A stretch of DNA of 64,000 bases from Pseudanabaena yagii GIHE-NHR1 (GTDB lineage Bacteria > Cyanobacteriota > Cyanobacteriia > Pseudanabaenales > Pseudanabaenaceae), in the NCBI RefSeq assembly GCF_012863495.1, contig NZ_JAAVJL010000001.1, positions 2,476,001 to 2,540,000 of the forward strand, given 5' to 3'. Shown in pieces: positions 42,044 through 57,700 of the stretch (position 1 is its first letter; each line of letters begins with the position of its first letter). The notes under the pieces are model-generated. The model was not told the DNA's origin and made no database searches. It saw only the letters and a program-made list of their open reading frames with translations. The position numbers and the translations under genes are program-made.

Positions 42044-42652
42044 ATGTTTAAGTCAAAGCTCTTTCAATATTGCGCGATCGCTGCCACAGCCGCAATCACC
42101 AGTGGCGTGATTGTCTCTAGTACTGCGAGTTTGCAATCTCAGCCTCCGAAACCTCAGGCAGTCGAAACCCAGAACCAGTTAGGAAGCCCCAATAATCTTG
42201 CCGAGTTGCCCGACTCAGCCGATAAATTTGCAGCTAATAGTCCCGATATGCCTTCAGGGAAAGTCCTCAAACAGCTAAATCTCACTCCTGAGCAATTACA
42301 AAAACTTAAGGCAGTTCGCGATCGCGATCAAACGCAAATGCGCGAACTGGGACAAAAATTACGCCAAGTTAATAAGGAATTACAAGATTTATTAGCTGGT
42401 ACTGAAGGTAGCGATGTCATTCGAGCCAAGCATAAGCAAGTGATGGAGCTGCAACAGGAATTACAAAATAAACATTTCGAGAGGATGCTAGCCATGCGTG
42501 ACATCCTCACGCCACAACAGCGATCGCAACTTAAGGAAATCATGCAAAAAAATCGCGATCGCATGAGAGAGGGCATGAAAGACCGTATGCAAAATCGTTT
42601 GGAAAACCGTAGAGAGCGGCTAGATAATCTGCGCGATCGCTCAACCCTATAA
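42044..42652 (+). CDS. Spy/CpxP-like periplasmic protein
   Basis: Residues 1-25 form a signal peptide-like segment (LFQYCAIAATAAITSGVIVS). A Gln/Pro-rich stretch follows, then a long helical domain with the LTxxQ pattern twice: LTPEQLQKLKAVRDRDQTQM and LTPQQRSQLKEIMQKN. This is the Spy/CpxP/LTXXQ family, which in E. coli buffers periplasmic protein misfolding. The extreme C-terminus is very basic (RENRRERLDNLRDR-like). It follows the sigma/anti-sigma pair by 73 bases and is probably a regulon member. Its stop codon lies in the arm of an 18-bp palindrome. Confidence 0.85.
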   Translation: MFKSKLFQYCAIAATAAITSGVIVSSTASLQSQPPKPQAVETQNQLGSPNNLAELPDSADKFAANSPDMPSGKVLKQLNLTPEQLQKLKAVRDRDQTQMRELGQKLRQVNKELQDLLAGTEGSDVIRAKHKQVMELQQELQNKHFERMLAMRDILTPQQRSQLKEIMQKNRDRMREGMKDRMQNRLENRRERLDNLRDRSTL

Positions 42653-42716
42653 AGTTGGTGGCGCTTTGCGCCACCAACTTTATAGAAAAAGAGCATCGCT
42701 TAGCGATGCTCTTTTT
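42647..42716. terminator. tandem palindromes ending the ECF operon
   Basis: First, 42647-42685 with perfect 18-bp arms CTATAAAGTTGGTGGCGC and a TTT loop, overlapping the Spy-like stop. Second, 42686-42716, AAAAAGAGCATCGC around TTA with a T-run. Together they form a strong terminator. Confidence 0.85.
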
Positions 42717-54010: not shown

Positions 54011-54037
54011 AATAAAGCACCCATAGGGTGCTTTATT
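54011..54037 (+). terminator. terminator after the M1 peptidase gene
   Basis: AATAAAGCACCC around ATA, perfect 12-bp arms, followed by TTTTT. It starts one base after the stop codon. Confidence 0.85.
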
Positions 54038-54174: not shown

Positions 54175-54873
54175 ATGCAGAAAAGAATTCCTGTTAAGCT
54201 CCCAATTTCCCATGTTTTTAGCACTGCTGCGCGGACTGTCGCTGTTACAGCGATCGCTGGCTATCAGAAATTTATCTCACCCCATAAAGGATTTTCTTGC
54301 GCCCATCGCGTGCTCTATGGTTGCGAATCTTGCTCTCAATATTTTAAGCGAGTGATTGCCGAAGATGGGATTTTAGTGGCGATCGCCAATGCTAAAGGTC
54401 GCTTTCAGGAATGCCGTGAAGCCAATGAAATCTTAAAAGAGCGTCGAGCCAAATGTCAGTCAAGGCGGCGATATTATGCCAGTCGCTTAGCTTCAAATAC
54501 AATGACGATCGAAGTTGGTGAACCTGATGATTTAGGAGATACTGAGCCTACCGACGAGCCTCAAGAATCTCCAAATTCGGATAAACCTAAAATTGGTGGT
54601 TCGCGATGGGCATCTAAAAGGCGATCGCAAGCGACGAGTAATGGTGGCGAAGGTGGCAATAATTGCGGTAATTCCAATGACTGTAATGATTGTGCTAACT
54701 GTGCTGATTGTGCCGATGGTATGAGTGTGATGGACTGTGATAGTTTGAATTGTCCTGATTTAAGCTGTCCTGATCTTAACTGTGGCAATGCTGACTGTTT
54801 ATCGGGAATGGATTGCAGTGGTTGTGGCGATTGCGGCGATTGCGGTGGCGCGGATTGTGGTAGCTGTGGTTAG
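54175..54873 (+). CDS. yidD: YidD-domain protein with a long Cys-rich tail
   Basis: Residues 1-85 contain the YidD (membrane protein insertion efficiency factor) domain: AIAGYQKFISPHKGFSCAHR, then VLYGCESCSQYFKRVIAEDG. The family is normally ~70-100 residues. Here ~150 residues are added: a charged, Pro/Asp-rich linker, then a tail (161-232) with 16 cysteines spaced mostly 3 or 5 apart in NDC, ADC, LNC and GDC units (C164, 170, 173, 176, 179, 188, 193, 198, 203, 208, 214, 217, 220, 223, 228, 231). The tail has no known fold. It could bind metal or be disulfide-bonded. Confidence 0.88.
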   Translation: MQKRIPVKLPISHVFSTAARTVAVTAIAGYQKFISPHKGFSCAHRVLYGCESCSQYFKRVIAEDGILVAIANAKGRFQECREANEILKERRAKCQSRRRYYASRLASNTMTIEVGEPDDLGDTEPTDEPQESPNSDKPKIGGSRWASKRRSQATSNGGEGGNNCGNSNDCNDCANCADCADGMSVMDCDSLNCPDLSCPDLNCGNADCLSGMDCSGCGDCGDCGGADCGSCG

Positions 54874-54939: not shown

Positions 54940-56691
54940 ATGATTGATCATGATGTACTAATTATTGGTGGTGGATTAGCAGGCTCTAGGGCAGCATTGT
55001 CCGTTGCCCAAAATTATCCTCATCTAAGTGTGGGCTTGATTTCTAAGGTGCATCCGATCCGATCGCATTCCGTTGCTGCCCAAGGGGGGATCGCCGCCTC
55101 GCTCAAAAATGTGGATAATGATGATTGGCTCACCCATGCTTTCGATACGATTAAGGGTTCCGATTATCTCGCCGATCAGAATTCTGTACAGGTTTTAACT
55201 CAATCAGCTCCCGAAGTAATTATTGATTTGGAACATTTAGGAGTTCTCTTTTCCCGTGCCGAAGATGGGAAGATTGCCCAAAGACCCTTTGGCGGACATA
55301 CCTATAGTCGTGCTTGCTATGCCGCCGACAAAACGGGCCATGCGATTTTGCACGAATTGGTAATGAATCTCCGACGACTCGGTGGCACGATTTACCAAGA
55401 ATGGTATGTCATGGATTTAGTTTATGAAGATGGCACAAATGGAACTGAAGTCAAGGGTGTTGTCGCCTATAGTTTGGAAACTTCACAAATAGAAGTGTTT
55501 CGGGCTAAGGCAGTATTAATGGCAACAGGAGGCTATGGGCGCGTTTTTAATACCACCTCTAACGATCTTGCTTCAACAGGGGATGGATTATGTTTGACCG
55601 CAAATATTGGCTTGCCTTTGCAAGATATGGAATTTGTGCAGTTCCATCCAACGGGTTTATATCCTGTGGGGGTGCTGATTTCGGAAGCGGTGCGTGGTGA
55701 GGGAGCCTATTTGATTAATGATTTAGGTGATCGCTTTATGGCAAATTACCCCATCAGCAAAAATCGAATGGAACTATCGCCTCGTGATATTACATCGCGC
55801 AATATTGCCTGCGAAATTATGGAGGGTCGCGGTATTAATGGCGGTAATTATGTATATCTCGATGTTCGCCATTTAGGAAGAGAAAAGATCCTCAGTCGTA
55901 TTCCCTTTGCAAGGGAGGAAGGTTTGCGCCTAGCAGGTGTGGACTGTATCGATCATCCTTTGCCTGTGCGCCCCACTGCCCATTACTCTATGGGGGGCAT
56001 TCCTACTAATATCAATTGTCAAGTACTTGGCGTAGATAGCCAGCCGATCGCAGGATTTTTTGCCGCAGGGGAAACAGCTTGTGTGTCCGTACATGGAGCA
56101 AACCGCTTAGGTGCAAATTCACTGTTAGAGTGTGTAGTTTTCGGTAAACGTGCAGGTGAAAAACTGGGCGAATATGTCAGCGATCGCCCCATGCCTAAGA
56201 TCGTGTCGCGCCCCTACCTAATCGATGCCGACACCAAGCTCAAAAGGATGTTAGCCAAACAAGGTACATCCCGCATTGCCGATATTCGCCAACAATTGCA
56301 GGATACGATGACCGAGCATTGTGGCATCTTCCGCGATGATCAACGCCTCAAAGATGGTTTACAAAAAATTCAAACTATTTGCGATCGCTATGATCATGAT
56401 TTGCTCGTTGATGATCGCAGTACGGTTTTTAATATGGAACTGATGCAGGCGATCGAATTACGCAGCTTGCTCACCGTCGGCGAAATTATTATGTCCAGTG
56501 CTTTATCCCGCAAAGAAAGCAGGGGCGCACATTCCCGCGAAGACTATCCCAGCCGCGATGATGCTAATTACCTGAAACATACTCTGGGTTACGTAGAAAA
56601 TGGTCAGGTCAAAACTAGCGATCGCCCCGTTGATATGAGCTTACAAAACATTGATCGCGATCGCTTTACACCTCAAGAACGCAAGTATTAA
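54940..56691 (+). CDS. sdhA: succinate dehydrogenase flavoprotein subunit
   Basis: SdhA (or fumarate reductase flavoprotein) oxidises succinate and carries covalent FAD. The 583-residue protein has the FAD Rossmann motif [17 protein letters not shown], the FAD-His segment [16 protein letters not shown], and [20 protein letters not shown]. The catalytic Arg region is GMRLGA-like [14 protein letters not shown], with [16 protein letters not shown] before it. The C-terminal capping helices also fit. No sdhB is adjacent; in many cyanobacteria the sdh genes are scattered. Aspartate oxidase (NadB) is a less likely alternative because of the closing [20 protein letters not shown] segment and the length. 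Confidence 0.9.
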
Positions 56692-56839: not shown

Positions 56840-57700
56840 GTGGCGATCGACGAATTTATAAAACTGCTGGATCAAGGCGTAAATAACTGGAACAGATGGC
56901 GAGAAACTCATCCTGATATTCGCGGTGTTGATCTCAGTGAAATTCAGTTAGAGGGTATTGACCTATCTGGCATTGATCTCAGTATGGTGAATTTGCGTGG
57001 GGCAAGACTACGGGATGTCAATCTGTCCTCTGCTAATTTGCGTGGTTCAGACTTGAGCATGGCAAATCTCCGAGGTGTCGATCTCAGTGGTGCAAATCTT
57101 AGCTCATCGCATCTCAGTATGATTTGCCTAAGTGAGGCGAATCTCAGTAATACCAATTTAAGTGGTGCTGACTTGCGCGGCTCCAATCTCCGTCTTGCAA
57201 ACCTCGATCGCGCTGATTTATCAACCGCGAAGCTGAATATGTCCAGCTTGAATGGTGTCAGCATGATTGGCGCAATTCTGATTGGGGCAAATCTCAGTCG
57301 TGCTGAGCTACGTGAAGCCAATCTAGCTGGAACTGATTTTAGTCGCGCTAACCTAAGCGAAGCCGATCTCTCCCACAGTAATCTTAATGTTGCGGCTTTG
57401 GTGGGTGCAGATTTGATTGGTGCAACCCTTGTGGATATTGATCTCAGTGAGTCCAATCTTTGCCGCGCTAATTTGATTGGGGCAAATCTCTATCGCGCTA
57501 ATCTCTGTGGCTGCGATCTGATTGGTGCAGATATGCGGGGCACAAATTGCAGTGAAGCCTATTTTATTGGTGCAGATTTAAGTCGTGCAGATCTGAATCG
57601 TGCCGAGTTTACTGGCTCCAATCTCAGCAAAACTAACTTTACTGGTGCAAATACCGAAACCACCGATTTTCAAGATGCCATTCTGCCAGATGTTTGGTAA
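56840..57700 (+). CDS. pentapeptide-repeat protein
   Basis: After a ~35-residue helical start (GTG start, AIDEFIKLLDQGVNNWNRWR) the rest of the 286 residues is a nearly uninterrupted series of A(D/N)LXX repeats (SSANLRGSDLSMANL; GADLIGATL). They form a right-handed quadrilateral beta-helix. Such proteins are very common in cyanobacteria with mostly unknown roles; some mimic DNA and inhibit gyrase, but nothing here points to that. There is no signal peptide or membrane span. A terminator (57706-57726) follows. Confidence 0.9.
   Translation: MAIDEFIKLLDQGVNNWNRWRETHPDIRGVDLSEIQLEGIDLSGIDLSMVNLRGARLRDVNLSSANLRGSDLSMANLRGVDLSGANLSSSHLSMICLSEANLSNTNLSGADLRGSNLRLANLDRADLSTAKLNMSSLNGVSMIGAILIGANLSRAELREANLAGTDFSRANLSEADLSHSNLNVAALVGADLIGATLVDIDLSESNLCRANLIGANLYRANLCGCDLIGADMRGTNCSEAYFIGADLSRADLNRAEFTGSNLSKTNFTGANTETTDFQDAILPDVW

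Follow-up and report, generated by a model that had tools for sequence, protein, structure and literature searches.

The window, a 64,000-nucleotide stretch of the Pseudanabaena yagii GIHE-NHR1 genome, holds a gene for a 232-residue YidD paralog with a Cys-rich tail (54175..54873, +), and the conservation of that tail within the genus argues for a selected part of the protein. The open reading frame runs from the ATG at 54175 to the TAG at 54873 with no frame break. A divergent YidD domain comes first in the protein, followed by a basic helix, an acidic linker, a conserved GGSxW motif and the Cys tail. The YidD domain (residues 21-88; 54235..54438, +) matches TIGR00278 at 73.2 bits against a cut-off of 40, and PF01809 scores the protein at 28.9 bits against a cut-off of 27; with both profile cut-offs exceeded, the window protein is, by these measures, a member of the YidD family. 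It carries the signature SPHKGFSCAHR...SCS within the domain, and C42, C53 and C80, which fall in invariant columns of A6, are the Cys it has in common with ordinary YidD, whose residues at the matching places were compared by eye. On the same strand follow the basic end of the long C-terminal helix, ERRAKCQSRRRYYASRLASN (54439..54498, +; AlphaFold2 helix 66-108), an acidic, fast-evolving linker (54499..54591, +) recognized by its composition, low pLDDT and a rough dN/dS of 0.33 over residues 91-157, the short motif IGGSRWASKRRSQ (54592..54630, +), identified by alignment and conservation, and the Cys/Asp/Gly tail itself (54664..54870, +).

The original prediction described a tail of regularly spaced Cys after the YidD domain, rich in Cys, Asp and Gly, and both spacing and composition were confirmed. 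Residues 164-232 contain 16 Cys, 13 Asp and 11 Gly, with Glu, Lys, Arg, His, Phe, Tyr and Trp all absent. Successive Cys lie 6, 3, 3, 3, 9, 5, 5, 5, 5, 6, 3, 3, 3, 5 and 3 residues apart; 12 of the 15 gaps are thus 3 or 5, and the smallest is 3. Across the window, the tail ranks top for Cys among 15732 overlapping 75-residue stretches drawn from six-frame, stop-to-stop frames of at least 60 residues. The second-ranked stretch, with 13 Cys in 75 residues, lies in an antisense frame (42328-42696, -) opposite the ORF at 42044-42652, a reminder that chance can yield Cys-rich frames, and for that reason the Cys count alone would prove little. Spacing is more telling: a spacing of 5 occurs 147 times in the 26 genus tails against 25.8 ± 4.8 in within-tail shuffles, and 224 times against 49.7 ± 7.2 in 63 other tails with at least five Cys, although related tails are non-independent in such statistics. 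CC and CxC occur 0 and 2 times in the genus tails, where the shuffles predict 43 and 38, and are depleted in the 63 non-genus tails as well (32 and 59 against 105 and 87 expected). A search for a copy of the tail elsewhere in the same genome, with four candidates scored, returned matches only at E 0.3 and 1.0 apart from the gene itself.

The gene with its Cys tail was found in all 26 Pseudanabaena genomes searched (that of the window and 25 more). Elsewhere in the family, 9 genomes from other genera gave no match to the gene, and in the rest of the class 6 of the 23 genomes searched gave one. The Pseudanabaena loci are the closest relatives among the best 80 of 265 loci. At least five Cys follow the domain in 26 of 26 genus proteins, the number ranging from 10 to 19. 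The Nei-Gojobori method, applied to the 26 genus sequences, puts dN/dS at 0.063 in the YidD domain, at 0.326 across residues 91-157 and at 0.078 across residues 158-232, values that are rough because dS is saturated, so that only their ranking is safe. On that ranking the tail appears about as constrained as the YidD domain (0.08 against 0.06). Cys is the best kept of the abundant residues in the last 45 positions, with a mean column identity in the genus of 85% (0.85), followed by Asp at 78% and Gly at 76%, and the Trp of IGGSRWASKRRSQ is identical in all 26 genus proteins. A tail missing in close relatives, or broken in frame, had been named as the mark of a chance extension; instead, it is present and in frame in 26 of 26 genus genomes. 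Because of this distribution, and of a constraint about as strong as that on the domain, we conclude from sequence comparison that the tail is real, is under selection and is no chance extension.

The same genome holds an ordinary YidD (G000:C1:1024696-1024896, 105.9 bits) with the CRFQPTCS...DPVP signature. The description of the gene as a YidD with an added tail therefore stands for family and tail but not for the implied standard YidD, since the window protein is a separate paralog beside an ordinary copy. We file it as a paralog within the family because PTCS and the C-terminal HPxxxGGxDPVP of ordinary YidD are absent from it. Paralogs are marked by SPxKGxxCA and, some ten residues later, CS; they keep the three YidD Cys and have lost the HPxxxGGYDPVP end. 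Ordinary and paralogous proteins split with 100/100 support in a tree of 134 domains (29 ordinary, all cyanobacterial, and 105 paralogs), and again with 100/100 in a second tree to which gammaproteobacterial ordinary YidDs were added (53 ordinary, 50 paralogs); the trees used 70 and 68 columns, respectively, and their bootstraps had not settled. On these trees, the gene belongs to a paralog group separate from ordinary YidD.

A YidD match of some kind was present in 96 of 98 genomes of the phylum. Ordinary YidD accompanies the paralog in 14 of 14 cyanobacterial carriers checked, and both copies occur in 4 of 5 carrier genomes outside the phylum; a Rubrobacter MAG (G339) has the paralog and no ordinary YidD match. 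Two genomes (G068, G086) show extra YidD-like matches of 49-64 bits, and a Cocleimonas genome (G336) has two paralogs (L197, L199), each with 5 Cys after the domain, as well as an ordinary YidD. Strong matches (>70 bits) were found in 30 of 291 genomes of the phylum, with weak ones (20-26 bits) in 14, and in 10 of 370 genomes of the class of Thiofilum, the Gammaproteobacteria, including the centre genome, with weak ones in 53. Because paralogs were told from ordinary YidDs by a boundary drawn by eye near 70 bits, and up to 20 (phylum) or 16 (Gammaproteobacteria) candidates were scored per genome, carriers may be undercounted; the named loci, being the best 80 of 265, lean to cyanobacteria. The window protein counts as YidD by both TIGR00278 and PF01809, whereas PF01809 scores 3 of the 8 relatives scanned below its cut-off; 11 of 14 plasmid records name the paralog YidD. 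A phage or virus origin found no match in 50,697 phage records, and 5 pattern hits in viral contigs yielded 0 confirmed cases.

The search model (A3) was built from YidD-domain residues only, so tail content was not selected for. From 146 paralog loci, 113 were retained after dropping those that were identical or open at the locus end. Outside the genus, at least five Cys follow the domain in 63 of 87 paralogs and at least three in 78 of 87; 24 of the 87 have fewer than five and nine fewer than three (L031, L058, L083, L102, L103, L105, L131, L139 and L147, the L058 frame being short at 57 residues). The best paralogs of 10 gammaproteobacterial genomes, one of them the centre genome chosen for having the gene, have 8, 7, 12, 7, 3, 6, 8, 3, 4 and 4 Cys after the domain, and copies carried on plasmids (Calothrix, Vibrio, Pseudomonas, Loktanella and Deinococcus; 11 of 14 records read) have 4 to 10. 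Ordinary YidDs read end short, with 0-4 Cys. Among 24 of them (20 weak matches of the gammaproteobacterial survey and 4 from the carrier-genome check outside the phylum; the ends of L190, L219 and L229 read by eye), 21 have no Cys after the domain, two have one and one has four, and among 30 from cyanobacteria (L178 dropped), 14 have none after DPVP, five have one and 11 have two or three. Cys-rich tails were seen in most paralogs read from Cyanobacteriota, Pseudomonadota, Deinococcota and the Rubrobacter MAG, in very different forms, and the proposed search for similar tails in other cyanobacterial proteins thus had a positive outcome. Such tails are a property of the paralog group, in which they are usual across phyla.

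Tails in Nostocales and Microcoleaceae have five-residue Cys repeats and those of others CDVGx repeats; several families show a short CIVIPCCLPL, and Deinococcus has CCCGPLPIPFRCG. The L073 tail is encoded by a 30-base array of 8.9 copies and that of L046 by a 15-base array of 4.4 copies, from which tails seem to grow or shrink by unit duplication. By eye, L031, L033, L102, L105, L112, L132, L136, L137, L138 and L139 have RRxFI/L and a hydrophobic stretch after the domain, ending in ALA in some, and then a Cys motif with CC; the segment resembles a Tat-type signal or signal anchor lying within the protein, which would direct the Cys out of the cytoplasm. In L115, L199 and L206 the protein continues beyond the Cys segment, through a hydrophobic stretch into another region of about 100 residues, so the Cys segment does not always form the C-terminus. 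Ordinary cyanobacterial YidDs often carry tiny Cys/His/Asp ends such as CCQHED, CDCDHEK and PCHHKHD (L152, L155, L157, L164, L166, L170, L173, L177, L179 and others), which look metal-binding and may matter family-wide.

The paralog gene is flanked by genes for an M1 peptidase with HEAT repeats and for SdhA, the flavoprotein of succinate dehydrogenase/fumarate reductase, which begins 66 bases downstream (54940..56691, +). Upstream of the paralog gene, a terminator-like site (54011-54037) separates it from the M1 peptidase gene; none was found in the interval to sdhA. A RiPP precursor with the YidD part as leader would call for maturation enzymes next door, where the two genes identified are those for the M1 peptidase and SdhA. 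Same-strand sdhA lies downstream in 20 of 26 genus loci; among the other six, one includes just the final 28 residues of sdhA and five have 873-1500 bases without it. A second genus set, overlapping the first in species, gave 16 of 16, and the gaps in genus loci range from 3 to 854 bases. Outside the genus, chlP (geranylgeranyl reductase) is divergent next door in 26 of 69 loci, the two tested both exceeding the TIGR02028 cut-off, and a sulfate-transporter-type ATPase gene lies 51-505 bases downstream on the same strand in 5 of 69 (L055, L056, L058, L061 and L095; the L061 and L095 products, the two tested, exceed the TIGR00968 cut-off). Such a gene lies about 2 kb on in L054, and L063 has [2Fe-2S] ferredoxin and msrA genes nearby, at that locus only and in no recurrent cluster. 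At L100 (949-6022), the paralog lies between dxs and phytoene desaturase, both over their NCBIfam cut-offs, and a gene further out looks, by eye, phytoene-synthase-like. Taken with sdhA and chlP at other loci, membrane-bound flavoproteins recur among the neighbours, which may be chance. We saw no neighbour shared by every lineage. Two genes downstream of the paralog in the window, at 56840-57700, is a pentapeptide-repeat protein (NF052603, 158.7 over 125) without the Cys pattern.

AlphaFold2, run with 62 sequences, places helices at residues 12-34, 40-48, 53-64 and 66-108, with pLDDT averaging 59-93 per ten residues from residue 21 to residue 110, an overall mean of 59.5 and a pTM of 0.40. The linker had been called disordered, and its low pLDDT agrees; the disorder prediction proposed for the tail gave pLDDT below 50 for residues 169-232, and we regard the tail as predicted to be disordered. 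The near-perfect repeats of the L073 tail are likewise unstructured in their own, weak model (mean 45.3). Because AlphaFold2 models neither metals nor disulfides, the tail could yet fold upon binding metal. The suggestion of a self-assembling surface gained nothing from these models, which give the tail no fold, and no evidence for it was found. Foldseek against the PDB gave no match with E at or below 0.001, and by sequence the PDB yielded no relative of the window protein at E up to 1, nor of the genome's ordinary YidD at E up to 10.

We consider a membrane-tethered poly-thiol strand that binds soft metals to be the best reading of the tail, tentatively and at less than even confidence; we infer metal binding and its use from composition alone. 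A metal or redox role, as first suggested, agrees with that composition. With its N-terminal helix and small helical domain, the YidD part would hold the protein at the cytoplasmic side of the membrane, close to the machinery for insertion. The tail, predicted to be disordered and built largely of Asp, Cys and Gly, would act as a multivalent thiolate/carboxylate strand that holds Zn, Cu(I) or similar soft metal ions and so buffers or donates metal locally at the membrane. We infer the membrane position and nearness to Sec/YidC by analogy with E. coli YidD, which was reportedly found, in 2011, to be located at the membrane and to contact nascent chains. A review table counts YidD as a SecYEG partner on the strength of crosslinking (PMC8082313). 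No stretch of the window protein is strongly hydrophobic (the peak 19-residue hydropathy is 1.18, N-terminal), so the tail is most likely cytoplasmic, where its Cys would be mostly reduced and free for soft metals; it is this placement that makes the membrane-tethered metal-binding strand the best reading.

Several further observations favor metal binding: the tail is constrained (a dN/dS of 0.078, rough as it is) with Cys best kept; it has no basic or aromatic residues and a pLDDT below 50 for residues 169-232; and gammaproteobacterial paralogs, found by the domain alone, have 3-12 Cys after it in 10 genomes. The range of 10 to 19 Cys in the genus, together with whole-unit repeats, is what one would see if a large number of thiols counted for more than their precise geometry. 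That 16 of 30 ordinary cyanobacterial YidDs end in a short piece with 1-3 Cys would fit a weak link to metal for the wider family. Against metal binding stand the near absence of CC and CxC in the genus and their shortfall elsewhere, the 24 of 87 non-genus tails with fewer than five Cys (9 with fewer than three), and the neighbours, since no metal genes occur among the two flanking genes scanned or the recurrent neighbours named (chlP and the sulfate-transporter ATPase). A more specific version, in which the paralog pairs an insertion-site domain with a poly-Cys tail and hands metal or a metal cofactor to nascent membrane or membrane-bound enzymes, Pseudanabaena succinate dehydrogenase being one client, is a long shot.

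The main rival, which we rank second and think possible if on balance unlikely, is a thiol/redox tail whose reversible or mixed disulfides switch or crosslink the protein at the membrane under oxidative stress. The same 16 Cys would suit it, and the twin-Arg-like hydrophobic segment seen by eye before the Cys motif of L031, L033, L102, L105, L132, L136, L137, L138 and L139 could put their Cys outside the cytoplasm; however, the window protein has no such segment and its tail is probably in the reducing cytoplasm. The ferredoxin and msrA genes near L063 also fit a redox role but are confined to that locus. Another reading is a tail that attaches the protein to a partner or the membrane, with its Cys lipidated or docking on, for example, the adjacent flavoprotein, and no metal or redox chemistry involved. 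The downstream sdhA of the genus loci (20 of 26 and 16 of 16, in overlapping species) and the divergent chlP of 26 of 69 others are what such a tail might predict, yet neighbours vary by lineage and synteny by descent would look alike, and we hold this to be quite unlikely. The sulfate-transporter-type ATPase found at 5 of 69 loci outside the genus would also fit a sulfur or cysteine store or sensor: reduced sulfur could be kept in the tail, or translation of the tail could signal how much cysteine is available. The loci are few, no such ATPase was seen in the Pseudanabaena loci examined, 232 residues for 16 Cys would make a costly store, and constraint at the amino-acid level extends to Asp and Gly, all of which render the idea very doubtful.

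The Cys-rich coding stretch could also act on sdhA as an attenuator sensing Cys-tRNA. Poly-Cys reading frames act as attenuators in mycobacteria, and this precedent and the 66-base gap speak for the idea, but no terminator-like site was found in that gap, the constraint on the tail is at the amino-acid level, and tails also occur where sdhA does not follow. We rejected it, the only terminator-like sites being upstream at 54011-54037, and give it the lowest probability of all. Non-functional low-complexity drift would explain why tails vary widely among lineages and expand by repeats; it is improbable given the rough, dS-saturated dN/dS of 0.078 in the genus, the recurrence of tails across phyla and the short ends, with 0-4 Cys, of ordinary YidDs. 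The dominance of spacing 5 recalls a pentapeptide-repeat-like beta-helix with Cys in the inward position, and when Cys is replaced by Leu the L073 tail matches PF00805 at 5e-23, as a shuffled version does not. However, the same replacement gave no hit with the window and L057 tails and only E 0.039, under the cut-off, with L054; the unaltered L073 tail scores just 10.9 bits (E 0.37), and no match of the PF00805 type was found in the window protein or eight whole relatives. AlphaFold2 shows no strands in either the window or the L073 tail, at low tail confidence. With neither profile match nor predicted beta-helix, the pentapeptide fold was rejected as highly improbable.

YidD is also treated in PMC10490939 and PMC3573977, and, among the matches listed, none of the titles and abstract openings of the YidD literature, with subscription papers mostly outside, is about such tails. 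The domain is known; the paralog group and its tail are seemingly unnamed and the variant undescribed. Paralogs are commonly annotated as plain YidD despite a branch of their own and, mostly, a Cys-rich tail that ordinary YidD lacks. Little is understood of what YidD itself does, and a naturally occurring form with a single extra part offers a way into the question. A tail that bound metal or sensed thiol stress would link membrane protein insertion to metal or redox control.

Among known systems, the E. coli yidD gene sits in an rpmH-rnpA-yidD-yidC-trmE cluster (PMC10502375), whereas the window paralog adjoins M1 peptidase and sdhA genes. Like pentapeptide-repeat proteins, many relatives have a five-residue Cys period, some in an (A/L)DC(S/G)(G/S) register, but the window protein has neither a Pfam hit of that kind nor a predicted beta-helix. 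With YidD as defined by TIGR00278 and PF01809, it has in common three conserved Cys and an N-terminal helix followed by an ISP motif; it differs from ordinary YidD in that CRFxPTCS has become CAHRxLxGxxSCS and the HPGGYDPVP end is lost, and the paralog has gained a long basic helix, a linker and the Cys tail and forms a separate branch. Metallothioneins are similar in their very high Cys content and in lacking aromatic residues, as does the tail. CC and CxC are typical of metallothioneins, and their lack argues against a classical one here: the genus tails are depleted in both, and the window tail has a minimum spacing of 3, is acidic, and is fused to the domain of a membrane-associated family.
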